Positions 3,874 to 63,349 of a DNA stretch of 64,000 nt are shown in pieces (the first letter of the stretch is position 1; each line of letters opens with the position of its first letter). The stretch lies in contig NC_088297.1 in the NCBI RefSeq assembly GCF_032854445.1, positions 3,285,991 to 3,349,990 on the forward strand, read 5' to 3'. The translations under genes were made by a program, and so were the position numbers. The notes under the pieces were generated by a model. The model was not told the DNA's origin, did no database searches, and worked only from the letters and a program-made list of their open reading frames with translations. The DNA comes from Liolophura sinensis. Taxonomy: Eukaryota; Mollusca; Polyplacophora; Chitonida; Chitonidae.

Positions 3874-6800
3874 ATGGGGGTGAGTCTTGTTATTTTGTTT
3901 TGATCAGGCTGATTTTCTCAATGAGTCCACTGCCATTTTATTCAGTTCACTCATCATTGATGTTTTGATACAGATGCTATCATGCAACACTCAGCAGTCC
4001 AAGAATGAACTCATAAATGAAACTATAGTAACTCATAAAGTCAATTTTCCTCGACATGTGTCCTATTTATAGAACATTAAATACTATACCACGCATATTA
4101 TTATGTATGGGAGCTGAGCTAAGAAAAATTATACTTTGATTTTTTTTTTTTTAAAGTATTGTAAAATCCTGTAAGAAGCTAGAGACCATGTGATCTCCTC
4201 AGTAACAAATGCTGTGGGTGACGAAAATGTTCCTGTCAACATTATTGCATAGGAAAAGACCTATTATTGAATCTCTGTCAGCGATCTTGTATCCGTTGGA
4301 TGTGTATAATTTTCAGCTTTCCAGATATAGCATTTCTGCAGAGCTTTCGTGACATTATTTTGTACAACTAGGCCTTACTGGTCACTAACGAAGGGGCAAA
4401 GAGTGAACTTTTCCCCAGTGCTTTAACATTGGCCGGCCATTTTGTTTTTGACACAAAAGGGTGGTCACGTGACCTCCAACTTCCGAATGGTAAAGTGTAC
4501 ATTCGATCGAAAGACACCAACTTATGTTCTTGTAGTGGCCGATAACCCCTGAAAGTCTCCCTCCTCAATTTTCTTTTTCTGGCCTAGCATCACTGGAGTC
4601 TCCATGCTAACAATCTTATTTCCATACTCAACGAACATTTAGGCTGATTGTCATCATATGCCCCTGCTCACTTTAGAGTAGATTTATTATAGTCATGAAG
4701 GCTTTCATGGCATACACTCCTTGGCCTCTTCCACAGTACACACTCCTTTTGACCAGCCATGCGCATGTCCTGATTCATCGTGGAACAATGGGAAGATGGC
4801 GGTAGTGGCCAAGGGGTGTGTGCTGTGGAAGATTTCATGGCTATAATAAATTCATTGTAAAGTGAATAGGGGCATATGGTGGAGGTGTGGTGGTGTGGAA
4901 AACAAGTCTTTAGGTTGGTGTCTTTTATTTGCACGAGACTTGTTCGATAGCAGAGGCACTCGGCCTAGACATTCGCTGAAAACGAAATTATCACTCTTAG
5001 CACCAAGACTTCAAAGACGCTAGGCCAGTATAAGAAAAGGAGTGGTTCAAAGTCTTTCGGGGCTAGTAGTGGTCTATACCATTGTTAATGCATACCCGGT
5101 ACTCACTGAGGGTTTAGGCTAATTGTGTTTGTTAGCAAGTAGTCCTGCGCATAATGGTGTCTTCGCTCCAATATTATTTTGAAGGTACTTCACTGCTGTC
5201 ATGCATCCTCATATTTACTTTCCTTGGAGTAGTGCCAGAGTTTTTCCTCTTTGCACCTTGGACACATATAGTGTGTCACCTGTGAAAGTACAGATCAACA
5301 TCCACAGTTAAAAGGAAACCTAGCCATCACAATGGACGTGGGTGCAAACAATGTCGCGTCCTGTGTATGGAGTGTGTGGGTAGGCCTATCAGCAACCTGC
5401 GGATGGTTGTGGGTTTCCCACGAGTCCGGTTTCCTCCTGCCATAATGCTGGCTGCCGTCATGCAAGTGAGATATTATTGAGTGCGGGGTAAAACACCAAT
5501 CAAACAAACAAATAAATAAAGCCTTAAAAAATAAACTGGGTCAAATGCTACGAAAGTCACCTGTCATGGCTCAAATACAGGACACAGTCGCTGTCTATGG
5601 GTTGGTTTCATTTTACATGAGGTTTTTTCTTCTAGACCAGCAGGCTGCTAAGGAATAAAGGTGCCAATATTGTAGCAAGCATCTTTGTGGAGGTCAGTAC
5701 TTTCACAGGAGACACACTATACGTGCCAAAGGTGCTATGTGGCAGAACTCTGGCACTACTCCAAGAACAGTTAATATAAGGATAAGCCTTCGTGGCTGTA
5801 AAACATTTATACTAAAGTCAGTATGGGCATTTTATAACAGACAGTTAGTTATCTTTGATTGGCATGACTTAAAAGGCTATAGGGATAACGATAATGATTA
5901 TTCACAGGTAGATGTGGGCCGAAGTATGTGCTTAAGAGGGTCAAAGAAAATACAAGTTGGACGCATATTAATGATGATCGTTATGTATAGGTGTAGACAT
6001 TCATGTGCAATGCGTGCAGATGTGACAAAAGCAAATTAAGCCTCGTGTCATCCCATCAGCTTAGGGACAGGCAGCATGGTTCATGCAGATGGTTTACAGT
6101 TACCTGTTGACACCATTTACTATATATTACATGTATGTGATTTTACTAGGACACTCTACCCCCCATAAACAAGGGACACGGGGCAGGGGAGGTGCAAGGG
6201 TCGAGGGGTAAATTCCACCCCAGGAACTGGAAGAAGCTGGGACCATCTGAGCTGAAGAAACTGACACCACTGCAGAGGAGCAGATACCTGGCTGTAAGAA
6301 CATCATATAATAGTTTTATTAAGAATGTCCATGGCATATTGGTTAGCGTTCTAGTACAGCAAAATGACATGCATGTAGGAGCCTCCCATTACTGTGGTCG
6401 CTCAGAATTCAAGTTCAGACCTCTCCGGTCCTGCATGGGAATGTCAACGTGCAGATGGTTAAGGGTTTCCCCAGAGCCTGGTTTTCTCCCCATCAGAATG
6501 CTAGCTGCCGTTGTGTTTGTGAAATTTTTTTGCCCCAATCAAATAACTAAATAAATGAATACTAACATGACTATAAAGTGTCTCCTTTAATTATGATGAG
6601 TGATAGCTTTTGAGCATGGGAAGATGGACCTTAGTTGACATGCAGGATGGCGGCTCTGTCGCTGATGCTTCAGGCATGATGTCACTGGTTTGTGTGCTCC
6701 TAAATTGCATAGACACCTTATCAGAGTCAGATCTGTTTGCCACATAAAGGTAGATCTTTGCTTAACTCATGGATTAGTGATGTCATACGCACCTATATAG

Positions 6801-9800
6801 CCACTGGAAAACAACTCCCTTGTACACAATGTATGACTGTGGATGTTCATGTGTGTAACTGTGTACATGCACCGGTCCTGATATCTCAGTTAGTAGAGTG
6901 TCTGCTTTGGGAGCAGGAGATCCAAGGTCAGTCCTGAGTCAGGTCGCACCTAACACATTAAAGGAGGAAGTTCTTCTTCTCTCCATGTACAGTACACTCT
7001 TTATGTTTTTGGATTTGACACACTTTCTCTTCTCTCCATGTACAGTACAATATTTATTTTTTTGGAATTGACACACTTTCTCTTCTTTCCATGTAGATTA
7101 CAATATTTGTTTTTTTGGATTTGACACAATTTCTCCCCTCTTCATATACAGTACAATATTTGTGCATTTGGATTTGACATAGTTCCTCCTCTCTCCATGT
7201 AGAGTACAATATTTGTGTGTTTGGATTTGAGACAATTTCTCCTCTCTCTCCATACAGTACAGTATTTGTGTGTTTGGCTGTGACACAATTTCTCTTCTCT
7301 CCGTGTTCAGTGCAATATTTATGTTTTTGGCTGTGACAGAATTCTCGTCTCTCCATGTACAATACAGTATTTATGTTTTTGGCTGTGACACAATTCTCTT
7401 CTCTCCATGTACAATACAGTATTTTATGTTTTTGGCTGTGGCACAATTTCTCTTCTCTCCATGTACAGTACAGTATTTATATTTTTGGATTTAACACAAC
7501 TTCTCAATGTAGCTTTCTCATTATGATATTAATAGCTTTACATTCAACACAATTTCTTTGCTCTCCACAGTATGAAGACCCAGACAAGGTAGCTGCTGAG
7601 GCTCAGGGGAACAGTCAAAAGAGACTGATAGATAAAAAAAAATCAACAACGGTACTGACACTTTTGCTCTTCTAAATTTGTGGATTTATTTCTGTCAGCA
7701 GTTACTAAAAGCCCTTGTTACGACAGCTAGTACAAAACTTAGGCGACATATTAAAACATATACGCTACCTAACAAAAGCTACATGTACGCCATACATGGA
7801 CATTTTGTTAACTGATTACTGTTATTCTTCAACCGTTTCGCATGTTTGCAAGGTGATTATTCAAGCATGTTCCGAATGCTCTATTCTGTGTAGGCTGATA
7901 AAATTATACCTTTTTGGTGAAGCCCTTGAAATTGGCCAATCCAACCAATGTGATTTTTTCTCCAAAATCTATACGCATAAATGCGCATAAATTGCGCTGA
8001 AAGTTGCTCTATCACGTTGAAGAATCAGGATAAAGCAAGTTTAGGATAATGACATGTATGTGAGACATACTAGAAGTTTAAAAAAAAAGCAGTTTAGCTT
8101 TAAGATCGGTCGGCCATGTCCCCGGCTTATCTCTGATAATGGCTACATGACGTGACTTGGAACTCGATCCCATAATAGTGAAGTAATTCTGATTTCATAT
8201 TGTTTTTTAATTGAATTCTATTGCTGTCATGCTCGTATTTACCTTGGCTGCAGAATGCCAAATACAAGGAAGACGTTTTAAATACTGGTTGACAACAATA
8301 TTGTTAAATTACTGTTTTAGAACCCGTAGTCGACTCGTATCTGGGTTCAGTGATACTAATGATTGAAATCAAGGCATCACCAATTCTGTGCAGGGTGTCA
8401 AAAGCTTGTGAAATATTTTACATCTTTGTGATAATGCCGTCATTTCTTCGTTATTACTATTGTTACCCTAATATTCCTGACTAATTTTCACTCCAATTTA
8501 TGCAAATTTTTTGAAGTTAATTTTGAAGACAATAAAAGGATTGGTCGGTTTCAGAGCTTTGCATAAAGTTTAATTTTGTCAGTCTACACAAAACAAGTGC
8601 CATCAGAATGTGCTTGAATAAACACCTTGCAAACATGGTAAAAGGTTGAAGAATTACCGTAAATGTTTTCAATTTTGTTTTATTAACTTTGCGGGTTTTT
8701 TTTTGGTTTTTTTTGCAGAAATAGAGACGAGATTACAGAAGAAGATTTACAGGAACGAGATAAAAATGCAAAGTTAATTGGACAGCTCAAGTAGGTTGAT
8801 TTGCATAATTGACGAACCTGTTGATGAACCAACAAATAACGTGTGGAAATGTTTTGAAAATATTGATCCTGGCTCAGATGTAATGTTTTATCATGTTTAT
8901 TTGACTGTCAGACATTAATACATTAATGCTGATCAAATTGTTAAGTGGAAATATGTGACTTGATTTAATTTTGAAACGATAACATGTAGGAAAAACTCCT
9001 GTTTTATGCCAATGCAAAAGTTGATTATTTGAGTTGCTGTTAATAATGCACTTATATTTTGAGAAATAAGTTGGTGTTTACCTGTGTTTACCTGTGTTTA
9101 CCTGTCCTCCAGGGCTGCAGAAGCTAGGAACCGACTACGTATTATGAGATTACGCTACCAGGCAAATCGGGTGAGCGCATGCAAGTGCAGGCTGCTGTCT
9201 TTGCACCATATGCATTCTCATGTTCACTTTATAATTAAGAGCACAAAACATAAATCAGCTTTCAGTTTTTCAGTTTGAGCCAGATTACATTTTGTATTTA
9301 CTTGTACCTGATGTCTTAAGGTATACATGCTGTCTTCCTCTCCGTCCATACGTGGGAAGGTCTGCCAGCAACTTGCGGATGGTTGTGGATTTCCCTGGGT
9401 TCTGCCCGGTTTCCTCCCACCATAATGCTGGCCGCCGTCGTATAAGTGAAATATTTTTGAGTATGGCATAAAACACTAATCAAATAAATCTTAAGGCATG
9501 TACCTATACATATACTTACATATAAAGGTGTGAATATTGTAAATGTCATGATATTTTGAAAAAGCAATATGCAAATTTGTCATACTGAACTTTATGACTT
9601 CCATGCAGTCAGTTTTGCTCAGTGTTTGCAGTGGGAAGAATGTTATATGTTATACATATGTTGTATCTGGGATTAATCTGTCTCCCCTAATCCGTCTCTC
9701 CTAATCCGTCTATCCTAATCCGTCTATCCTAATCCCAGGTTGTATGTAAATGTAACTGTAATCCAGGGGCTGATTCCACAAAGAAATCCCTGACATAAGT

Positions 9801-31130: not shown

Positions 31131-31613
31131 AGCCCCCCCCCCCCCCCCCCCCCCCGTAACAATTTACATAACGTCCATGTTATAACCATAACGTCCATAA
31201 CTGCCACCGTCCTACGTGCTACCGTCCTACGTGCTACCGTCCTACGTGCTACCGTCCTACGTGCTACCGTCCAACCTGCTACCACCCTATGTGCTACCGT
31301 CCCATCTGCTACCGTTCTACCAGCTACCACCCTATGTGCTACCGTCCCATCTGCTACCGTTCTACCAGCTACCGTCCTATGTGCTACCGTCCCACCTGCT
31401 ACCGTTCTACCTGCTACCGTCCTACATGCTACCGTCCTACCTGCTACCATCCTATGTGCTACCGTTCTACCTGCTACCGTCCTACGTGCTACCGTCCTAA
31501 GTGCTATCGTCCTACGTGCTACCATCCTATGTGCTACCGTCCTATGTGCTACCGTCCTACGTGCTACCACCCTATCTGCTACCGTCCTATGTGCTACCGT
31601 CCCCTATGCTGTT
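31131..31613. repeat. Poly-C tract followed by 15-bp minisatellite, about 27 copies
   Basis: A C run at 31131-31155 is followed by ACCGTCCTACGTGCT and variants from 31203 to 31613. Because 15 is a multiple of three, several frames stay open (five-residue repeats such as RRTVA on the minus strand, or LPSYV on the plus strand); these are not credible genes. Confidence 0.9.
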
Positions 31614-36100: not shown

Positions 36101-39100
36101 ATTATGTATCATGTCGTGGCAGGGCGAGCCTTTTCAAAGGCTTTGATATGACCCGACCCGGAGCATATTACCCAGTAATTATTGATCTGGGCCCGGTAAA
36201 TCAAAACTGGTATAAGATTTAATGCCAGATTTAACTTTAAGCCAAGTCCTCAATTTTGTACCTAGCCTAAAGCAAACTGTGTACCAGTATATTAAATTTG
36301 AACTAAAACTGCTGCTGTTATGCTTTGGCTTTGGAGAACTGCATTTGCTGCTGAGTAGGATTGAATTTGTAAATATTAAATATGACGTAATACTACTATT
36401 AGCTAATACAATTTTGAACAACTGAGCCATGAGAGTTATCTTTCCTTTTAATGTAACTAACCTTTATTCCGGATTTCTGTATTACTGCGTATGGGTCAAT
36501 ATATCATTCACTAACTTGGATTCTAACAGCAGATCTAAGACATAAATAGGTCAAGCAAAATTAGAACTTGTTGTTCACCTTCAAGCACATGCGACCTCTG
36601 GTTACATTTCAGATTCTTGCGCGGGGCGCTGTGGATCGGGCGTGGATTCGTCCAAAAACTGCCAGTGTAACTCTCACTGTGAAAGGTTTGGCGATTGCTG
36701 CTCTGACTACGACAGTCTCTGTAATGGAGGTAAGCTATACCAGAGGTGTTCGTTTATAATGTGAACGGTGTCACGACTGAGGGATATGGAATTAGGTCCG
36801 ACATTTACAATCGTTAAAAGTGTGAAATTGCAAACAAATGGTATGGAAGCCAGTTAACTCATGGTACCATCTTGGCTTCGCCCACCGTTGGCACGAAACG
36901 ATGGGAGGATGGTACGAAGCGATGGGAGGATAGTACAAAGCGATAGGAGTATTGCACGAAGCGAGCCAGTTAAGTTGAATGTGCCTATAACAATGCGTCA
37001 TACACGTGTATTTATCACATAACACAGAGCAAAGGTGTGCATTAGCCCTAAAATGATGGCGGACATTAGATACATATTTATTTATTTATTTGATTGGTGT
37101 TTTACGCCTTATTCACGAATATTTCACTTATACGACGGCAGCCAACATTATGGTGGAAGGAAACGGGTCAGAACCCGGGGGAAACCAACGACCATCCGCT
37201 GTCTGCTGACAGATCTAATTTCACGTACGGTCGGAGCGGAAGCCAGCATGAGCTGGACTTGAACTCACAGCGACCGATTGGTGGGAAGCTCCCGGGTTAG
37301 TTCCCGGCCTAACCACCTGGGCGTACGAGGCCCTAATTAGTTATATAGCAATAGTGTGCATGTTATATACATGTATATAACAACTGTGTGTTAGCTGTGT
37401 TACAGTGGTGTGCATTGGTCAATTAACAATGTTGTACATCAGCCGTATTACAAAGGTGTGCAATAACCATAAAACAAAAGTCATGTTACAATGCTGTGCA
37501 ATGGCCATGTAACAATGTTGTACAGTGGTCATATAACAATGGTGTGCGATATCTATATAACAATGGTGTGCAATGGCCATACAACAATGTTGTGCAATGG
37601 CCAATTAACAATGTTGTTCAGTAGCCATGTAACAATGTTGTACAGTGGTCATATAACAATGGTGTGCGATATCTATATAACAATGGTGTGCAATGGCCAT
37701 ACAACAATGTTGTGCAATGGCCAAGTAACAATGTTGTTCAGTAGCCATGTAAAAGTGTTGTGCTATGCCCATGTAACAATGGTGTGCAATGGCGATATAA
37801 CATTGGTGTGTAATGGCCATATAACAATCGTGTGCAAGGGCCATATAACAATAGTGTGCGAGGGGAATATAGCAAAGTTGTTCATCAGTCACATAACAAT
37901 GGTGTGCCATGTCCAGATAGCAAGGCTCTTCACCAGTCACTTGCAATGTACAAGAGTGAGTGAGTGCTTGGGGTTTATCGTCTAATACACAAAGAGTGCA
38001 GCTCTTGTGAACAACGGGCTCTACACATCTACACTTCACTAATCTCTCAGTGTGCATTGCTGCTGATGTATATATCTTACATTCTAGCCTTGTGTTTGGT
38101 TCATATCTCTTTCAGTATATACGCAACAAACCAAGGTATACTATCTTTGAACAATTGCTCTTCATTGTTGCTACCTTTGAACAATTGCCCTTCATTGTTG
38201 CTATTCTTGAACAATTGCTCTTCATTGTTGCTATCCTTGAACAATTGCTTTTCATTGTAGCTATCCTTGAACAATAGCTCTTCTATGTTGCTATCCTTGA
38301 ACAATTGCTTTTCATTGTAGCTATCCTTGAACAATAGCTCTTCTATGTTGCTATCCTTGAACAATTGCTCTTTATTGTTGCTATCCTTGAGCAATTGCTC
38401 TTTATTGTTGCTATCCTTGAGCAATTGCTCTTTATTGTTGCTATCCTTGAGCAATTGCTCTTTATTGTTGCTATCCTTGAACAATAGCTCTTCTATGTTG
38501 CTATCCTTGAGCAATTGCTCTTTATTGTTGCAATCCTTGAGCAATTGCTCTTTATTGTTGCTATCCTTGAGCAATTGCTCTTTATTGTTGCTATCCTTGA
38601 GCAATTGCTTTTCATTGTAGCTATCCTTGAACAATAGCTCTTCCTTGTTGCTACCCTTGAGCAATTGCTCTTTATTGTTGCTATCCGTGAGCAATTGCTC
38701 TTCATTGTTGCTATCCTTGAACAATTGCTCTTCATTGTTGCTATCCGTGAGCAATTGCTCTTTATTGTTGAGATCCTTGAACAATTGCTCTTCATTGTTG
38801 CTATCCTTGAGCAATTGCTCTTTATTGTTGCTATCTTTGAACAATTGCTCTTCATTGTTGCTATCTTTCAGCATGGCCGTATTGGTACATCTCCCTCTTG
38901 TATCTAATATGTTCTAGTAATCTACATGTACACGTATCAGACTGGTGTCTCTTCCAATCAAATGAACCGCTGCTATTTGTATACCGGCTGTTCACAGTTC
39001 CTGTTCATTACTGCTATTTGCCACCATGTGGACCGGTATATTTATGGTATGCTTCCCTTATGCTAAGACGGTGTGTCCAATGATTATACCTCTTTGGCAC

Positions 39101-42100
39101 TGTAACAAATCTACTGCTGTTCTCTTTAAATGTTGGTTGATCATGAGTATTTATGAGAATTGGCATAGCACAGGGATTTCTCAACCTGCATCTCTTGTGA
39201 GTTTTTATTTATAACTGTACTTATTTCTTTGTAACTGTACTGCATAAAAGTCAATACTCTCTTTGAGTACTGGTTGGCCGTTACTCCATGCCCCAATATT
39301 TCTCCATGCCCTTTACCAATATTTATCCATGCCAGTTACCAATATTTCACCTTGCCTGTTACCAATATTTCTCCATGCACCAATATTTCTCCATGCCTGT
39401 TACCAATATTTATCCATGCACCAATATTTCACCATGCACCAAAACTTCTCCATGCCCTTAACCAATATTTCACCATGCCCATTACCATTATTTCTCCATG
39501 CCCGTTACCAATATTTATCCATGCCCGTTACCAGTATTTTTCCATGCCAGTTGCCAATATTTCTCCATGCCTGTTACCAATATTTCTCCATGCCCATTAC
39601 CAATATTTATTCATGCCCATTACCAAATACTTTTCCATGCCAGTTACCAATATTTCTCCATGCCTGTTGCCAACATTTCTCCATGCCCGTTACCAATATT
39701 TCTCCATGCACCAATATTTCTCCATGCCCGTTACCAATATTTCACCATGCCCATTACCATTATTTCTCCATGCCTGTTACAAATATTTTTCCATAGCAGT
39801 TACCAATATTTCTTCATGCCAGTTACCAATATTTCACCATGCCCGTTACCAATATTTCTTCATGCCCGTTACCAATATTTCTCCATGGCAGTTACCAATA
39901 TTTCTCCATGCCTGTTACTAATATTTCTCCATGCCCAAATATTTCTCTATGAGAGCTACCAGTATTTCTCCATGCCTGTTACCAATATTTCTCCATGCCT
40001 GTTACCAATATTTATCCATGGCAGTTACCAATATTTCCCCATGCCTGTTACCAATATTTTTCCATGCCCGTTACCAATATTTCTCCATGCACCAGTATTT
40101 CTCATGCACCAATATTTTTCCATGCCAGTTACCAATATTTCCCCATGCCCCAATATTTCTCCATACCCGTTACCAATATTTCCTCATGCCCGTTAACAAT
40201 ATTTCCCCATGCCCCAATATTTCTCCATGCCCGTTAACAATATTTCCTCATGCCCGTTACCAATATTTCTTCATGCCCCAATATTTCTCCATGCCCGTTA
40301 CCAATATTTCTCCATGCCAGTTACCAATATTTTTCCATGCGCATTACCATTATTTCTCCATGCCCATTACCTATATTTCTCCATGCTCCATGGCAGTTAC
40401 CAATATTTCTTCATGCCCGTTACCAATATTTCCCCATGCTCCAATATTTCTCCATGCCAGTTACCAATATTTCTCCATATTGTTACCAGTATTTCTCATT
40501 GTCGTTGTATGGTGCCTCTCTGTCGTATGCTACATGTGTATATGTCTGGGTCATATCTCCAGGTACTGCTAACCCCGCTCCCCCCGTTCACTGATTCAAG
40601 TTCTACCTAGCCGAAGACCTGTGGTAGCGTTTTGGACGCCGTCAGTGTGTAGTGCAAAGTAAACAAAAACATAAAAGACACTTTTAATTTCCAGTGAGCC
40701 CATTGTGTTTTCAGCTACCTGTTCAGGGCGGTGTGGCAGCGCGTTAGATACCTCTCAGTCCTGTCAGTGTAACAGTCACTGCTTACAGTATAACGACTGT
40801 TGTACGGACTACACACAGCTGTGTACCACGGTCACCAGTAAGTCGGACAACTCACACAACAGTCACTTTCCATACACTTCTGATCTTTTGGGGGCTCAAG
40901 GTGTTTCTGTCTCTTGATATGGCTGGTCTCGTGGATGTCTGCACTGACCGTGACGACCGTCACAACTGTCTCTCTTCATAGACTTCTGATCCTTTCTGGG
41001 CTCAAGGTGTTTCTGTCTCTTGATATGGTTGGACTCGTGGGTATCTCATTGGCCCTAATAAAACAAGCACTGCCCTTTCTGAACAGTCGGTTCTCTTCGG
41101 AGGGTACTTTATCTCTTAGATTTGGCTTGTGTATCTCGCTCAAACTTCGTCGACTTGATTATTATCCAAGCTCAGGTTGGTTCTTTATTGTTGCTATTTC
41201 TCAATAAGGGTTGCATGTTGAAGGGATATGTATCCACTAGGTTCTGCTTGTGCATCTCGCTCAAATCTTTTTGACAACAAACCAAGCTCGGTTACTGTAT
41301 CTCGGTTAACAAAATGGTTGTTTGTTGTTGCTATCTCTCAAATAAATACTCTTTTCATACTGTTGGTATCTCATATGTTCTAGCTTTGTATATATCCGGT
41401 TCTTATTTCTTCGTCTTCATAACAATAATAATATGAAAGCTGGTGTCTTTAAACAAAGGCGGCCCATTGTTGCCATTAAGTATTTAATTGATGTTTTACG
41501 CCGTACTCAAGAATAGTTCACTTATACGACGGCGGCATCATATGGTAGAAGGAAAGCGAGCAGAGCCGGGGGAAACACACGACCATCGGCAAGTTTCTGA
41601 CAGACCTTCCCACGTACGTGTTGCTATTATGGTCATATATTGCTACCACCTCTTAAGCTATGACTTCAAATCCGATATATACCTCTTTGGTACTTGGACA
41701 AATCTAACGCTGCTCTGGTTGTCTGTTACTTATTTTTTAAAATGTTTTGTATTATTTTTCAGTCTCTATATCCTTGCCTTTAGTTCATATTTGTGTGGCA
41801 CTGCGTTAAAGTAATGCTGTCTTTTAAAGGTTTTTTTATGTTCTTTACTTGTCATATTATATATTCATATCTCGATCGATTCGGTTCTCTTATTTCTGCA
41901 GCAAACCAACGTTGCGTGTATTTTTATCGGCGTGGGACTTTATACCGTTACACCGTTAACAAGTAGTTGTAAACCTGTACAAAGAAGCTCATGTATTCTA
42001 CGTCTCCAGTTTTCCATCCCAGGCTATGTAATTAAAAACGCCTTATTTTAACATGTGTTGCTATCGTGTTTCACGAAGATAAATCGTAAGTACACGACGT

Positions 42101-51580: not shown

Positions 51581-52232
51581 CAGTGTGGAACTGGACCCAT
51601 GTTTCCCTTGATCCGTAGCTATTGAAAGGCAAGCCAATATAACCACTGGGTCATGATCCGCTTTATGGCGCTTTAATGAACAATTATACTGAAAATAACT
51701 ATCCAACTTTTCAGTATCTTCAACAGAGGGATTGGCAATAATCAATTCTGTTAAAGGCTTGCAAAGATTAATTGATTTGGAAAAAGTGAATAATATTTAG
51801 TTTTCCTCCACAAATTTTATAATTCATCTATTAAGCCATTTCAAAATACTAAAAAGAAAATTATGACGAAGACGTTTTGGTACAGGATTTCCCTGAAGCT
51901 GCCAAATTTAAGAAAGTGTCACTGTTTTTCTGATTGCTTAAGAAACGAGACAATTTATTTGGAGCATGTATCTACTTGGTTTGGTCAACCCTGATCACAG
52001 AGATTCTATGAAAATCAAGACGCTATTACTGGGACAGTAATGTGTTAATAAACATTCCTTAAATCTTTGAAGTGAATATACCTAAATATTTAATGATAAT
52101 ATTATACATATGGGCAGATTTTTAATTAAATGTTCTCATCTAACCTAATTGCAGTTCTCTGAAAGACAGGATGCACATCTATACGGGATCAAAGTTTAGG
52201 TTGGACAACAATCAGTTGCATTTAGTAATCTA

Positions 52233-53263
52233 GTCGGTTTTTGCAAATAAATTTCAACCTCATCTTATTAAACCACATTATAGTTGGTTTTTGCTAATAA
52301 ATTTCAACCTCATCTTATTAAATCACATTATAGTTGGTTTTTGCTAATAAATTTCAACCTCATCTTATTAAATCACATTATAGTTGGTTTTTGCTAAAAA
52401 ATTTCAACCTCATCTTATTAAACCACATTATAGTTGGTTTTTGCTAATAAATTCAACCTCATCTTATTAAATCACATTATAGTTGGTTTTTGCAAATAAA
52501 TTTCTACCTCATCTTATTAAATCACATTATAGTTGGTTTTTGCAAATAAATTTCAACCTCATCTTATTAAACCACATTATAGTTGGGTTTTGCAAATAAA
52601 TTTCAACCTCATCTTATTAAACCACATTATAGTTGGGTTTTGCTAATAAATTTCAACCTCATCTTATTAAATCACATTATAGTTGGTTTTTGCAAATAAA
52701 TTTCAACCTCATCTTATTAAATCACATTATAGTTGGTTTTTGCTAATAAATTTCAACCTCATCTTATTAAATCACATTATAGTTGGTTTTTGCAAATAAA
52801 TTTCAACCTCATCTTATTAAACCACATTATAGTTGGTTTTTGCAAATAAATTTCAACCTCATCTTATTAAACCACATTATAGTTGGTTTTTGCTAATAAA
52901 TTTCAACCTCATCTTATTAACCCACATTATAGTTGGTTTTTGCAAATTAATTTCAACCTCATCTTATTAAATCACATTATAGTTGGTTTTTGCAAATAAA
53001 TTTCAACATTATAGTTGGTTTTTGCAAATAAATTTCAACCTCATCTTATTAAATCACATTATAGTTGGTTTTTGCTAATAAATTTCAACCTCATCTTATT
53101 AAATCACATTATAGTTGGTTTTTGCTAATAAATTTCAACCTCATCTTATTAAATCACATTATAGTTGGTTTTTGCTAATAAATTTCAACCTCATCTTATT
53201 AAATCACATTATAGTTGGTTTTTGCTAATAAATTTCAACCTCATCTTATTAAATCACATTAAA
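52233..53263 (+). repeat. AT-rich satellite, 50-bp unit, about 20 copies
   Basis: AGTTGGTTTTTGCTAATAAA then TTTCAACCTCATCTTATTAA then ATCACATTAT repeats with a period of exactly 50 (for example 52331 and 52381). One unit near 52981-53009 is cut to about 28 bp. Variant positions (GCTAAT or GCAAAT, AAATC or AAACC) are mixed along the array. Confidence 0.95.
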
Positions 53264-55360: not shown

Positions 55361-58300
55361 CTAATTTTTCAGTTTGAAAAATAATATCACAGCTACTGTG
55401 GAGCTCATGACAAAGCCCAGAGTGCCGAAGGAAGGAAAGCCGTAGTTCTTGAGCATGAGACCTCCTACGGTCGGCGAGACGGAGCGAATCAGTGAATTGG
55501 TAGCCATGTTCAAACCTAGCATAGCTCCTGCAAATACAGACCAAGACAAACAATAATGATTTGTACCTTTTTTTTTTTTAGTAGGGGTGGGGGAATTGTT
55601 ACTTAAGTCCTTAAGGAGTATTATTTTAGTCATATGAATATCATTTAGAAAACAGAAATGTGCCTGTGTTAAACCTGTGACCTTGGGCATGTTACTTATA
55701 AACTTTTTCACAAGATGGACTATGGAAGCCGCTAAATGGCTTTGGAAACTAGGCCGGTGGAACCCAATCGTGCTAAACAAGAGAGTTATCAACCAAATAC
55801 TCTCGCCAAGGTATCACAAGCAGTGACAGAGAGTAAATCTATAGACTTCCTGTCCAAGGATGGGTTTGGAGTTGCCATGGTAACGGAAGAATCTGTGGAA
55901 GTAACTGACCTGTATCAGTGCCTCACAAGGTGTGTGTGAGAGCAGTAACTCACCTGTATCAGCATCTGACACAGTGTGTGTGAGAGCAGTAACTCACCTG
56001 TATCAGCATCTGACACGGTGTGTGTGAGAGCAGTAACTCACCTGTATCAGCACCTGACACGGCGTGTGTGAGAGCAGTAACTCACCTGTATCAGCATCTG
56101 ACAGGGTGTGTGTGAGCAGTAACTCACCTGTATCAGCATCTGACAGGGTGTGTGTGAGAGCAGTAACTCACCTGTATCAGCATCTGACAGGGTGTGTGTG
56201 AGAGCAGTAACTCACCTGTATCAGCATCTGACACGACGTGTGTGAGAGCAGTAACTCACCTGTATCAGCATCTGACAGGGTGTGTGTGAGAGCAGTAACT
56301 CACCTGTATCAGCATCTGACACGACGTGTGTGAGAGCAGTAACTCACCTGTATCAGCACCTGACACGGTGTGTGTGAGAGCAGTAACTCGCCTGTATCAG
56401 CATCTGACACGGTGTGTGTGAGAGCAGTAACTCACCTGTATCAGCATCTGACACGGCGTGTGCGAGAGGGGTAACTCACCTGTATCAGCATCTGACACGG
56501 TGTGTGTGAGAGCAGTAACTCACCTGTATCAGCATCTGACACGGTGTGTGTGAGAGCAGTAACTCACCTGTATCAGCATCTGACACGGCGTGTGTGAGAG
56601 CAGTAACTCACCTGTATCAGCATCTGACACGGTGTGTGTGAGAGCAGTAACTCACCTGTATCAGCATCTGACAGGGTGTGTGTGAGAGCAGTAACTCACC
56701 TGTATCAGCATCTGACACGGCGTGTGCGAGAGGGGTAACTCACCTGTATCAGCATCTGACACGGTGTGTGTGAGAGCAGTAACTCACCTGTATCAGCATC
56801 TGACACGGTGTGTGTGAGAGCAGTAACTCACCTGTATCAGCATCTGACACGGTGTGTGTGAGAGCAGTAACTCACCTGTATCAGCATCTGACACGGTGTG
56901 TGTGAGAGCAGTAACTCACCTGTATCAGCACCTGACACGGTGTGTGTGAGAGCAGTAACTCACCTGTATCAGCACCTGACACGGTGTGTGAGAGGGGTAA
57001 CTCACCTGTATCAGCATCTGACACGGTGTGTGTGAGAGCAGTAACTCACCTGTATCAGCATCTGACAGGGTGTGTGTGAGAGCAGTAACTCACCTGTATC
57101 AGCATCTGACACGGCGTGTGCGAGAGGGGTAACTCACCTGTATCAGCATCTGACACGGTGTGTGTGAGAGCAGTAACTCACCTGTATCAGCATCTGACAC
57201 GGTGTGTGTGAGAGCAGTAACTCACCTGTATCAGCATCTGACACGGTGTGTGTGAGAGCAGTAACTCACCTGTATCAGCACCTGACACGGCGTGTGTGAG
57301 AGCAGTAACTCACCTGTATCAGCATCTGACACGGTGTGTGTGAGAGCAGTAACTCACCTGTATCAGCACCTGACACGGCGTGTGTGAGAGCAGTAACTCA
57401 CCTGTATCAGCATCTGACACGGTGTGTGTGAGAGCAGTAACTCACCTGTATCAGCATCTAACACGGTGTGTGTGAGAGCAGTAACTCACCTGTATCAGCA
57501 TCTGACACGGTGTGTGTGAGAGCAGTAACTCACCTGTATCAGCATCTGACACGGCGTGTGTTAGAGCAGTAACTCACCTGTATCAGCATCTGACACGGTG
57601 TGTGAGAGGGGTAACTCACCTGTATCAGCACCTGACACGGCGTGTGTGAGAGCAGTAACTCACCTGTATCAGCATCTGACACGGTGTGTGTGAGAGCAGT
57701 AACTCACCTGTATCAGCATCTGACACGGTGTGTGTGAGAGCAGTAACTCACCTGTATCAGCACCTGACACGGCGTGTGTGAGAGCAGTAACTCACCTGTA
57801 TCAGCATCTGACACGGTGTGTGTGAGAGCAGTAACTCACCTGTATCAGCATCTGACAGGGTGTGTGTGAGAGCAGTAACTCACCTGTATCAGCATCTGAC
57901 ACGGCGTGTGCGAGAGGGGTAACTCACCTGTATCAGCATCTGACACGGTGTGTGTGAGAGCAGTAACTCACCTGTATCAGCATCTGACACGGTGTGTGTG
58001 AGAGCAGTAACTCACCTGTATCAGCATCTGACACGGTGTGTGTGAGAGCAGTAACTCACCTGTATCAGCATCTGACACGGTGTGTGTGAGAGCAGTAACT
58101 CACCTGTATCAGCACCTGACACGGCGTGTGTGAGAGCAGTAACTCACCTGTATCAGCACCTGACACGGCGTGTGTGAGAGCAGTAACTCACCTGTATCAG
58201 CATCTGACAGGGTGTGTGTGAGCAGTAACTCACCTGTATCAGCATCTGACAGGGTGTGTGTGAGAGCAGTAACTCACCTGTATCAGCATCTGACAGGGTG

Positions 58301-61300
58301 TGTGTGAGAGCAGTAACTCACCTGTATCAGCATCTGACACGACGTGTGTGAGAGCAGTAACTCACCTGTATCAGCATCTGACAGGGTGTGTGTGAGAGCA
58401 GTAACTCACCTGTATCAGCATCTGACACGACGTGTGTGAGAGCAGTAACTCACCTGTATCAGCACCTGACACGGTGTGTGTGAGAGCAGTAACTCGCCTG
58501 TATCAGCATCTGACACGGTGTGTGTGAGAGCAGTAACTCACCTGTATCAGCATCTGACACGGCGTGTGCGAGAGGGGTAACTCACCTGTATCAGCATCTG
58601 ACACGGTGTGTGTGAGAGCAGTAACTCACCTGTATCAGCATCTGACACGGTGTGTGTGAGAGCAGTAACTCACCTGTATCAGCATCTGACACGGCGTGTG
58701 TGAGAGCAGTAACTCACCTGTATCAGCATCTGACACGGTGTGTGTGAGAGCAGTAACTCACCTGTATCAGCATCTGACAGGGTGTGTGTGAGAGCAGTAA
58801 CTCACCTGTATCAGCATCTGACACGGCGTGTGCGAGAGGGGTAACTCACCTGTATCAGCATCTGACACGGTGTGTGTGAGAGCAGTAACTCACCTGTATC
58901 AGCATCTGACACGGTGTGTGTGAGAGCAGTAACTCACCTGTATCAGCATCTGACACGGTGTGTGTGAGAGCAGTAACTCACCTGTATCAGCATCTGACAC
59001 GGTGTGTGTGAGAGCAGTAACTCACCTGTATCAGCACCTGACACGGTGTGTGTGAGAGCAGTAACTCACCTGTATCAGCACCTGACACGGTGTGTGAGAG
59101 GGGTAACTCACCTGTATCAGCATCTGACACGGTGTGTGTGAGAGCAGTAACTCACCTGTATCAGCATCTGACAGGGTGTGTGTGAGAGCAGTAACTCACC
59201 TGTATCAGCATCTGACACGGCGTGTGCGAGAGGGGTAACTCACCTGTATCAGCATCTGACACGGTGTGTGTGAGAGCAGTAACTCACCTGTATCAGCATC
59301 TGACACGGTGTGTGTGAGAGCAGTAACTCACCTGTATCAGCATCTGACACGGTGTGTGTGAGAGCAGTAACTCACCTGTATCAGCACCTGACACGGCGTG
59401 TGTGAGAGCAGTAACTCACCTGTATCAGCATCTGACACGGTGTGTGTGAGAGCAGTAACTCACCTGTATCAGCACCTGACACGGCGTGTGTGAGAGCAGT
59501 AACTCACCTGTATCAGCATCTGACACGGTGTGTGTGAGAGCAGTAACTCACCTGTATCAGCATCTAACACGGTGTGTGTGAGAGCAGTAACTCACCTGTA
59601 TCAGCATCTGACACGGTGTGTGTGAGAGCAGTAACTCACCTGTATCAGCATCTGACACGGCGTGTGTTAGAGCAGTAACTCACCTGTATCAGCATCTGAC
59701 ACGGTGTGTGAGAGGGGTAACTCACCTGTATCAGCACCTGACACGGCGTGTGTGAGAGCAGTAACTCACCTGTATCAGCATCTGACACGGTGTGTGTGAG
59801 AGCAGTAACTCACCTGTATCAGCATCTGACACGGTGTGTGTGAGAGCAGTAACTCACCTGTATCAGCACCTGACACGGCGTGTGTGAGAGCAGTAACTCA
59901 CCTGTATCAGCATCTGACACGGTGTGTGTGAGAGCAGTAACTCACCTGTATCAGCATCTGACAGGGTGTGTGTGAGAGCAGTAACTCACCTGTATCAGCA
60001 TCTGACACGGCGTGTGCGAGAGGGGTAACTCACCTGTATCAGCATCTGACACGGTGTGTGTGAGAGCAGTAACTCACCTGTATCAGCATCTGACACGGTG
60101 TGTGTGAGAGCAGTAACTCACCTGTATCAGCATCTGACACGGTGTGTGTGAGAGCAGTAACTCACCTGTATCAGCATCTGACACGGTGTGTGTGAGAGCA
60201 GTAACTCACCTGTATCAGCACCTGACACGGCGTGTGTGAGAGCAGTAACTCACCTGTATCAGCATCTGACACGGTGTGTGTGAGAGCAGTAACTCACCTG
60301 TATCAGCATCTGACACGGCGTGTGTTAGAGCAGTAACTCACCTGTATCAGCATCTGACACGGTGTGTTAGAGCAGTAACTCACCTGTATCAGCATCTGAC
60401 ACGGTGTGTGTGAGAGCAGTAACTCACCTGTATCACCATCTGACACGGCGTATGTGAGAGCAGTAACTCACCTGTATCAGCATCTGACACGGTGTGTTAG
60501 AGCAGTAACTCACCTGTATCAGCATCTGACACGGTGTGTGTGAGAGCAGTAACTCACCTGTATCAGCACCTGACACGGTGTGTGTGAGAGCAGTAACTCA
60601 CCTGTATCAGCATCTGACACGGTGTGTGTGAGAGGGGTAACTCACCTGTATCAGCATCTGACACGGTGTGTGTGAGAGCAGTAACTCACCTGTATCAGCA
60701 TCTGACACGGTGTGTGTGAGAGGGGTAACTCACCTGTATCACCATCTGACACGGTGTGTGTGAGAGGGATAACTCACCTGTATCAGCATCTGACACGGTG
60801 TGTGTCAGAGCAGTAACTCACCTGTATCAGCATCTGACACGGCGTGTGTGAGAGGGGTAACTCACCTGTATCAGCATCTGACACGGTGTGTGTGAGAGCA
60901 GTAACTCACCTGTATCAGCACCTGACACGGTGTGTGTGAGAGGGATAACTCACCTGTATCAGCACCTGACACGGTGTGTGTGAGAGGGGTAACTCACCTG
61001 TATCAGCATCTGACACGGTGTGTGTGAGAGCAGTAACTCACCTGTATCAGCATCTGACACGGTGTGTGTGAGAGCAGTAACTCACCTGCATCAGCATCTG
61101 ACACGGTGTGTGTGAGAGCAGTAACTCACCTGTATCAGCATCTGACACGGTGTGTGTGAGAGCACTCGTAATCACAACATTCTTCAAACTGAGTCCGATC
61201 ACAAGCGGGAATACGGCTACCAGTAACATGGGGATGTTAGTCACGAATGCCTGTAAGGGTAGAAAGGCTCCTATCGTTTAAGAATTCTACGTAAATAGAA

Positions 61301-63211
61301 CTTCAACAGCAGAATCCAACCATAATGCTGGCTTCCATCATATAAGTGAAATATTTTAGAGAATAGAGCAAAACTTCAATAAAATAAATAAATTAAGCAA
61401 CAGTAGTCACAAAAATAATGACAGCTACCATTCCTTGTAAATTAGACTTTAATCCCTAAAACGATCAAAAATAAAGATCACTTACAATAATACGAGTGGA
61501 GAAAACTGAAATATCTTGCCTTTGGCGAGCAACAAACAATAACATTCTTCACATGTGCTTTATGGTAAAAATGCCTTAGAGGAATGCAAATGATTGCCTA
61601 TGAACTTCATGAAAGACTACCTAAACAGTCACCATGTTAGCAATTTTAACCAATCAGACGCGACTTATTTCTGTAGTGCTAGAACGCAGGTGTTTCCGCA
61701 GGTGCCATTCAAAACCTTGTTTGCGTTTTAGCCACATGAGCGTGGGGTACAGGTGACGTGACACTGTGTTGCCTGTTTCTCTGAAATGGTGTATCCCAGG
61801 GCCTCACAAGAATTCCATATTGAAAGCAGACTTACCAAGGCCATCAAACAAAATGTTCTGGCCTTTTAGATCTGTTTTTACCCCTCTTCTGAAATACCTA
61901 AGGTTAAATTATTTGTTGTCTTGTCTTTGTAGGCAAAATGTGGTTTTTCCCAGAGCCGGTCTGACGTACATGTACATATAGTCTGATAAATTCCAAATTG
62001 ACAGCAGTGTGAATATTATTTTTCATCGCTGGAAACAATTTATCCAGAATAAAGTACAATTTAATGAGAAAACTGAACAGTACATGCCGAGTGGACATCT
62101 TGTATCAACCATGTTGACATACACGTTACCCTTAAAAACAATTTTGACTTAAATCAGCCTTCAGATTACTTAATGTACACTTACACCCTTTGATTTCTCA
62201 TTTAATTATTGTTTTATGCCATAATCAAGAATATTTCACTTATACAATGGAGGCCAACATTACTGTGCAGGGAAATCGGGCCATCAGCAGGATCTTTCCA
62301 CATACAACCGGAAATAAAGCCAGCGTTAGCTTGATTTGAACTCACAACCATCACATTGCTGAGAGGATCTTGAGTCACTGTGCTGTGCTAGTGGGTTATA
62401 AACTCCTCCTGGGGCCCTCTGTTAGCATGTTTGGTATCGGCTTCTACATTACAACATGTCAATAATAACCCGCACAACAATACACGTACAATTACAGTAT
62501 TGACATATACTTCACCCAGATCTCATCAAAAACTTTGTGTTTTACTTTCGTGTTCTAGTCTAGTTTGTGCAAGGTTTTTATTTAGGTTTTTATATTCCAA
62601 AGGCAGTTTTTGTGTAGACTGATAAAAATTAAATTTCTTGTGAAGCCCTGAAATTGGCAAATCCAGCCAATGTAATTTAGTCTCTAAACTCAAATTAAAA
62701 ACGTGCATAAATTGCGCTGAAAGTTGATGTTTCATATGTGAAAAGGTTGAGTGCTTGAGTGCTTGGGGTTTTATCGGCGTACTCAACAATTTTTTTATGA
62801 CGATGAAGGAATCCTTCGAGCGCATGTAATGTGCCTCCTTGTCGCAGGAGGGATTTCCGCCGCTCTTTTATCTAGTGCTGCTTCACTGAGACGTCTTACC
62901 GAAGGCAAGTAAGGTGCCCCGCCACAGCCATTACACTGATACGGGTCAACCAGTCGTTGGAAAAGGTTGAGGGGTCAACCAGTCGTTGGAAAAGGTTGAG
63001 GAATTAGGGTCGTGTTTAATACAAATAGGTATAAGAAAAACTCACTTTAATTAAAAAACTGTTTCTAAAGCACTATATATGTTACCACGACTACAGAGAG
63101 ATTACATACTCACCAGAAAGAGGTAGGCTGCAGCTAATATGCAAGTGGACAGTTTCAGAATGGAGTTCTCCCCAAAACGACTCACCATTAAGCTTGTACC
63201 AAACCCCTGCA
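55361..63211 (-). CDS. SLC22A18: SLC22A18-like major facilitator transporter, last three coding exons (partial)
   Basis: Minus-strand exons: 63211-63114 (QGFGTSLMVSRFGE... to AAAYLFL, GTGAGT donor), 61250-61130 (AFVTNIPMLLVAVFPLVIGL... to THTVSDADT plus one base) and 55527-55361 (AMLGLNMATNSL... to AVILFFKLKN, stop TAG). Phases join without a break (phase 0, then 1). The C-terminus has SDADTGAMLGL, RSVSPTVGGL and a GFPSFG turn, which match the DTG-MLGL, GPTVGGL and FG pattern of SLC22A18 (ORCTL2), a 10-TM organic-cation-transporter-like member of the MFS. Hydrophobic segments IPMLLVAVFPLVIGLSL and FGTLGFVMSSTVAVILFF are the last membrane helices. The rest of the gene lies beyond the right edge. 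The intron between the last two exons is 5.6 kb and almost entirely filled by a minisatellite made from the exon end and its splice donor. Another MFS family is possible but less likely. Confidence 0.78.
55899..61164 (-). repeat. Minisatellite of exon-intron junctions, 44-bp unit, about 120 copies
   Basis: On the minus strand each unit reads CTCTCACACACACCGTGTCA, GATGCTGATACAG, then GTGAGTTACTG. The first 33 bases are the last 33 coding bases of the upstream transporter exon and the last 11 are the start of the intron, including the CAG|GTGAGT donor. The right end of the array (61130-61164) is the exon itself. Variants include CGTGTG for TGTGTG, ACAGGG for ACACGG, units short by two bases, and units with GAGAGGGGTAA. 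Because 44 is not a multiple of three, read-through reaches a stop within about three units. Confidence 0.95.
56041..60250. repeat. Higher-order 2106-bp duplication inside the 44-bp array
   Basis: Rare variants recur exactly 2106 bases apart: the two-base-short unit at 56101 and 58207, ACACGACG at 56231 and 58337, TGCGAGAGGGG at 56461 and 58567, ACGGTGTGTGAGAGG at 56981 and 59087, and CATCTAACAC at 57458 and 59564. Copies are about 56041-58146 and 58147-60250. Confidence 0.9.
61318..61398 (+). mobile_element. SINE-A 3' fragment
   Basis: CCAACCATAATGCTGGCTTC, ATATAAGTGAAATATTTTAG and CTTCAATAAAATAAATA, just upstream (minus-strand sense) of the transporter exon at 61130-61250. Confidence 0.55.
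62205..62420 (-). mobile_element. SINE-A, degenerate
   Basis: TTGTTTTATGCCATAATCAA, AATATTTCACTTATACAATG and a head reduced to CTCCTCCTGGGGCCCTC. Many substitutions. Confidence 0.55.
62550..62751 (+). mobile_element. Dispersed repeat R, copy 4, interrupted by SINE-B
   Basis: GTGTAGACTGATAAAAATTA, GAAGCCCTGAAATTGGCAAA, GCATAAATTGCGCTGAAAGT and the terminal TTCATATGTGAAAAGGTTGAG. The terminal AAAAGGTTGAG is repeated on the far side of the SINE-B at 62961. Confidence 0.6.
62752..62960 (-). mobile_element. SINE-B flanked by an 11-bp target-site duplication
   Basis: Reverse-oriented SINE-B body: TGCTTGGGGTTTTATCGGCG, GACGATGAAGGAATCCTTCG, GCAGGAGGGATTTCCGCC, AGACGTCTTACCGAAGGCAA, ending CGGGTCAACCAGTCGTTGG. 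It lacks the tRNA head. AAAAGGTTGAG lies on both sides (62741-62751 and 62961-62971), and a third copy with GGGTCAACCAGTCGTTGG follows at 62972-63000. Confidence 0.65.
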
Positions 63212-63349
63212 CTATCTACAACAATATTCAAAAAAAATCTTAACAAGCGTTAACTGTTCTTGTATTTAGTCACTCATTATTTTCTAACCGAAATTCATCT
63301 AAAACATCGGTAATATCACCACTAACTCACAGAACTATTTAACCGATTT

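Follow-up and report, generated by a model that had tools for sequence, protein, structure and literature searches.

Tandem repeats lying across exon-intron boundaries have been described as "mirages" in the globin, Adh3 and TnC genes of amphioxus, with similar imperfect repeats in PGBD5, and regular splicing is reported to be apparently undisturbed (PMC3087553, PMC3902484). In the human ABCA7 gene, a variable number tandem repeat (VNTR) in intron 18 begins at the exon 18 donor and consists of about 12 to 427 units of 25 bp, whose first bases are the donor GT. According to the same source, retention of one unit amounts to 2 ± 1% and is constant with length, and a longer array goes along with more skipping of the next exon and lower expression (PMC5954066). 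Here, we describe an array of about 120 tandem 5' splice sites (donors) in the last intron of a transporter gene of the chiton Liolophura sinensis. It lies in a stretch of 64,000 nucleotides (assembly GCF_032854445.1, contig NC_088297.1, positions 3,285,991 to 3,349,990), called the window below, whose numbering is used throughout. The array is a large new case of a kind already in print, and a phenomenon described for amphioxus and human genes is now extended to a mollusc; among the open-licence literature searched, no report of such arrays in a mollusc was recognised.

A donor minisatellite grown from an exon-intron junction

The array, as delimited by Tandem Repeats Finder (TRF), has a period of 44, 120.0 copies, 94% matches and a score of 9473 (Table 1). 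This agrees with a preliminary description of the same DNA, which had placed about 120 units at 55899..61164 with the same phase and donor. Cut at the donor, the array falls into 120 units, 112 of 44 bp and eight of 42 bp. They represent 25 sequence types, the commonest of which accounts for 52 units. The donor reads CAGGTGAGT (CAG/GTGAGT, the slash marking the exon border) in 117 units, CAGGCGAGT (CAG/GCGAGT) in two and CAGGTCAGT (CAG/GTCAGT) in the last one. Since unit 1 is the real exon end, the other 119 units are extra copies located in the last intron. The real donor, referred to as donor 0, is hence the first of some 120 near-identical ones, among which the preliminary description had already counted it. 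When both strands of the window were scanned for [AC]AGGTRAGT, 117 occurrences were found within the array, all on the minus strand, and none outside it.

The homology between the exon and the units starts at TGCTC (61164), and the repeated segment that fits best is made of 35 exonic and nine intronic bases (61164-61121). The 33 exonic and 11 intronic bases proposed earlier describe the same cycle, with two bases moved across the border. Growth from an exon-intron junction, also proposed earlier, is borne out, as the unit joins the end of an exon to the start of an intron of an open gene. All ten unit types that occur only once are confined to units 1-17 or 119-120, as in arrays whose middle has been homogenised. 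Moreover, a lag scan of the array revealed 2139 bp that match exactly at a lag of 2106, a feature absent from the preliminary description, positions 60264-58126 being identical to 58158-56020 without a mismatch.

Two other views of the repeat were rejected. A coding repeat is ruled out by the longest open stretch of 67 codons over six frames, with 81 to 121 stops per frame. A mobile or dispersed repeat is not borne out by a two-unit probe of the genome (609,464,459 bases in 632 contigs), which gave at least 56 matches, all inside the window array on contig C3; this count is a lower bound, the search skipping simple repeats, and the array is read in one assembled haplotype. The window is rich in minisatellites, others being located at 6975-7505 (53 bp), 31202-31602 (15 bp), 37488-37907 (24/120 bp), 38141-38865 (30 bp), 39293-40497 (23 bp) and 52231-53261 (50 bp).

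As for the host gene, exons joined at their GT/AG borders give nine coding exons and a predicted open protein of 451 residues. This predicted protein matches the Pfam family MFS_1 with 138.4 bits (curated cut-off 33.4; E 3.6e-40), which upholds the earlier assignment of the gene to a transporter; the name SLC22A18-like given with that assignment is putative. Since the host exon copy codes for part of a protein with a recognised domain, it is the natural ancestor of the units. The penultimate and last exons, joined at donor 0, read SALTHTVSDADTGAMLGLNMATNS. Matches of these two exons to NCBIfam stayed far under the cut-off, and a PDB sequence search gave no match. A search of the genome for a paralogue free of the array brought up none that was close, its two matches on C1 having 25% and 29% identity (E about 0.01).

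None of the 116 perfect-motif donors tested in silico after donor 0 yields an open in-frame product; the test covered 116 of the 119 extras, with the two GC donors and the one GTCAGT left out. An in-frame stop precedes 115 of the 116, and the remaining one, at +44, shifts the frame, with a stop four codons after the start of the last exon. By the usual rule, transcripts that stop in the last exon, such as those from this donor +1, would probably escape nonsense-mediated decay. It had been predicted that later donors would bring a frameshift and a stop within about three units. The first part of this prediction is correct, but the distance was slightly overestimated: a stop within the array already comes ahead of added donor 2 and of almost all those after it.

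Similar arrays at other exon ends

Three CAGGTRAGT motifs with gaps of 20-50 were found at 1093 places in the genome, against 251 for the reversed motif. The first 100 of the 1093 places were grouped by hand into 16 arrays (L046-L061), all in C1:1-18.84 Mb, and the DNA before the first unit was inspected for each of them. In six of the 16, a translation search identified at the array start an exon end matching a solved protein (Table 1). These six arrays hold roughly 10 to 95 units each. We take the helicase-like protein to be Mot1/BTAF1 and the [FeFe]-hydrogenase-like protein to be CIAO3/NARF. The L057 array probably starts at an exon as well. Its units resemble the junction chiefly on the intron side, as do those at the alpha-L-fucosidase exon. 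At the ABCC exon, the real donor is CAG/GTTAGT, so real donors are not all strong.

The next exon was present in the fetched DNA for four of the six genes, namely the CIAO3-like, 2-oxoglutarate dehydrogenase (OGDH), ABCC and fucosidase genes. In all four, joining the first donor to the next exon gives contiguous conserved protein, for instance MACPS-GCNNGGGQ and GMPHR-GRLNVLANV. For the BTAF1-like and RPC1 genes, the available DNA (2,051 and 1,902 bases) showed no next exon. Over the transporter and the first four genes, one of the 245 extra donors tested keeps an open frame, namely the +75 donor of the fucosidase gene; of the others, 242 follow a stop and two cause a frameshift, the donor pattern being slightly wider for the transporter than for the other four. 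If the array-bearing genes work, donor 0 would have to serve enough of their transcripts.

Further features were observed around these loci. An element resembling a short interspersed nuclear element, with a T/A-rich tail, is inserted within the donor array at L062/L061, and similar sequence stands beside other loci, e.g., before the L048 array. Downstream of the BTAF1-like array, further repeated stretches occur at minus-strand offsets of about 4950-5300 and 5520-7000; one of these stretches contains an open frame of 493 codons, in which a DLSCGVMSCP-like motif recurs.

Counts of the donor motif and of its reverse bear on the origin of such arrays. Among the places listed, again grouped by hand, the reversed motif forms four arrays in C1:1-18.84 Mb, vs 16 for the donor motif. 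The whole-genome totals are 19,904 donor and 7,580 reversed motifs, and the 16:4 ratio has a P of 0.32 when scaled by all motif copies and of 0.04 when scaled by singletons. Of the first 100 places listed for either motif, 50 donor and 15 control places belong to clusters of three or more, and clusters stand to singletons as 7:48 for the donor and 3:75 for the reversed motif (Fisher P 0.09), a control that is not matched for lying within genes. Extrapolated roughly to the whole genome, the listed places would amount to about 175 tandem-donor arrays and about 53 arrays of the reversed motif. A preference of minisatellites for arising at 5' splice junctions in the chiton is conceivable on these figures, though doubtful. 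If true, the chiton would offer a natural experiment on how the spliceosome picks the first among many near-identical donors. The arrays would also be a source of length-variable leakage, and several of them start where an exon of a presumably essential gene ends.

Conservation was compared between the donor 9-mer and the remaining positions of the unit. In eight of 11 arrays the 9-mer is the more conserved of the two, and in three, among them the BTAF1-like array, it is the less conserved. Thirteen arrays were measured, two of which (L057 and L059) were dropped as they were anchored on another AGGT; L048, L051, L053 and L058 were left out. In the window array, conservation of the donor 9-mer ranks second of 44 positions. 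Per-position identity gives no consistent sign of donors being kept or lost, in a test that homogenisation limits.

Table 1 Location of the donor array and host-gene exons in the window, and exons found at the start of other arrays
Feature	Position	Strand	Details	Basis
Donor minisatellite	55900..61164	minus	120 donor-bearing units	TRF and unit split
Exact tandem duplication of a 2106-bp block	56020..60264	minus	about 48 units	lag scan
Real donor (donor 0)	61121..61132	minus	CAG/GTGAGTTAC	sequence
Penultimate coding exon of the transporter	61130..61250	minus	121 nt, phase 1 end; final 35 nt form the exonic portion of unit 1	
Last intron	55528..61129	minus	5602 bp, nearly all taken up by the array; acceptor GGTCTGTATTTGCAG	
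Last coding exon	55361..55527	minus	stop codon at end	sequence and translation
Next upstream exon	63114..63215	minus	102 nt, IVQGFG...AYLFL	exon end counted by hand
Six further coding exons	65056-69783 (window scale)		past the window end	
Helicase-like exon at array start (L049)			E 2.6e-18	translation search
[FeFe]-hydrogenase-like exon at array start (L055)			E 4e-7	translation search
ABCC exon at array start (L060)			E 2.4e-11	translation search
2-oxoglutarate dehydrogenase exon at array start (L056)			E 6e-21	translation search
Alpha-L-fucosidase exon at array start (L054)			E 6e-10	translation search
RNA polymerase III RPC1 exon at array start (L059)			E 5.9e-9	translation search

Explanations of the array

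The array is probably a tolerated minisatellite of the mirage kind, seeded by the junction, and the donor at the exon end would be the one mostly used. At the 3' end of the penultimate exon, a tandem duplication would have captured the last 35 or so exonic and the first nine or so intronic bases. Unequal exchange or slippage would then have expanded and homogenised the array to 120 units, a growth that would include one recent duplication of the 2106-bp block (or its expansion in the assembly). Because the copies lie downstream of the original junction, exon length and coding sequence would be unchanged, and the array would be removed as intron. Donor 0 would be favoured as the sole donor that closes the 121-nt exon and as the one transcribed first. 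Exon definition and co-transcriptional splicing are general grounds for such a first-donor preference. Leakage may reach a few per cent at most, mainly to donor +1, and the leaked transcripts would carry a frameshift or an early stop. On these terms, the array would be nearly neutral.

A preference for donor 0 would have to operate among sites of equal pairing strength. The 5' end of one copy of the chiton U1 gene begins ATACTTACCTG, so donor 0 and its copies can pair alike; for CAGGUGAGU, eight Watson-Crick pairs and one G-U pair are possible. The U1 genes are themselves arranged in tandem with a spacing of roughly 2 kb, 34 of the 41 U1 matches lying in C10:30.03-30.14 Mb and four on C627.

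Several observations weigh against a tolerated array seeded at the junction. No exon end was found at the start of eight of the 16 other arrays (L046, L047, L048, L050, L051, L052, L053 and L058; at L053, an apparent exon lies roughly 100 bp upstream); at L057 an exon end is probable, and the L061 array ran past the end of the fetched stretch. Each unit also contains a candidate acceptor tract that is 65% pyrimidine, as are two of the three real acceptors of the gene, the third reaching 71%; by this simple measure, splicing inside the array may be possible. Furthermore, expression and exon skipping vary with array length in ABCA7, which suggests that such arrays need not be neutral. Skipping of the ABCA7 type would not be open in the same form here, because the next exon is the last coding one, and the analogous risks would be intron retention or early polyadenylation.

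Alternatively, and in line with the preliminary description, the donors might compete; copy number would then determine, by way of frameshift and nonsense-mediated decay, what fraction of the transcripts is productive, as a heritable, length-dependent dimmer. We consider this unlikely. A dimmer would be consistent with the 117 of 120 donors that fit the strong consensus and pair alike with U1, with the failure of all 116 tested further donors to give a product, and with the lower expression and more frequent skipping that track array length in ABCA7 (PMC5954066). Nevertheless, one-unit retention in ABCA7 is the same whatever the length, and the effect of length was not accounted for by nonsense-mediated decay (PMC5954066). 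Regular splicing is likewise reported in amphioxus (PMC3087553, PMC3902484), and the position of the next exon would not leave the ABCA7-like skipping route open in the same form. Moreover, arrays are also found in the RPC1 and OGDH genes, which could work only if accurate splicing were common.

It is quite unlikely that the array is largely an assembly expansion, in which a shorter true array was lengthened, e.g., by the 2106-bp block. The lack of any mismatch in that duplication would favour such an artefact, as would the HiFi data, whose 14x coverage and mean read of 8,347 bp give about five array-spanning reads by a rough estimate (PMC11068029). However, this set should include accurate reads that exceed the array in length, about 72 units would remain without the second block, and similar arrays exist at other loci. 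That the array is a functional splicing element, either by storing U1 sites that shield the intron against early polyadenylation or by supplying exons derived from the array, is very improbable: every unit offers a U1-complementary site and a candidate acceptor tract that equals two of the gene's real acceptors in pyrimidine content, but the donor shows no consistent upkeep (more conserved in eight of 11 arrays, less in three), as far as homogenisation lets this be judged.

The genome search also touched the mitochondrial sequence. On contig C99, seven COX1 matches lie about 15.5 kb apart, as if the assembly had joined mitochondrial genomes in tandem, and one more is on C632. Read with code 5, the mitochondrial stretch has the order nad3, nad2, cox1, cox2, atp6, all names except COX1 being assigned by eye; such an order is of the mollusc type and differs from that of amphioxus.

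Comparison with amphioxus and human arrays

Competing identical 5' splice sites are usually studied with few sites in reporters. One natural gene with about 120 donors, together with six other exon ends, makes first-donor preference and exon definition testable on public data. For the chiton, these data include RNA-seq of five tissues and HiFi reads (PMC11068029).

In amphioxus as in the chiton, minisatellite-like copies of an exon-intron boundary carry a splice signal (AG/GT) in many units, and the units at the edges escape homogenisation (PMC3087553). The scale differs, with three or six repeats of 150-160 bp described for amphioxus BflGb6 and about 120 units of 44 bp in the chiton. In addition, both boundaries can be involved in amphioxus, whereas in the chiton, a mollusc, the array sits at a donor. 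The mirages have been studied for RNA and for variation in length, the chiton array in its genomic sequence.

Human genes in segmental duplications likewise show minisatellite growth at an exon-intron boundary (PMC2812944). There, new introns may form via cryptic splice sites according to the same source, whereas in the chiton an existing intron was lengthened.

The human ABCA7 VNTR is of similar or greater size than the chiton array. Its unit is described as starting at the GT, whereas the chiton unit includes about 35 exonic bases. Length polymorphism and splicing effects are known for ABCA7; the chiton array has been read in genomic DNA only, and its next exon is the last coding one. The two have several features in common: both begin at the exon's own donor, both repeat that donor, and in both the retention of one unit would shift the reading frame.

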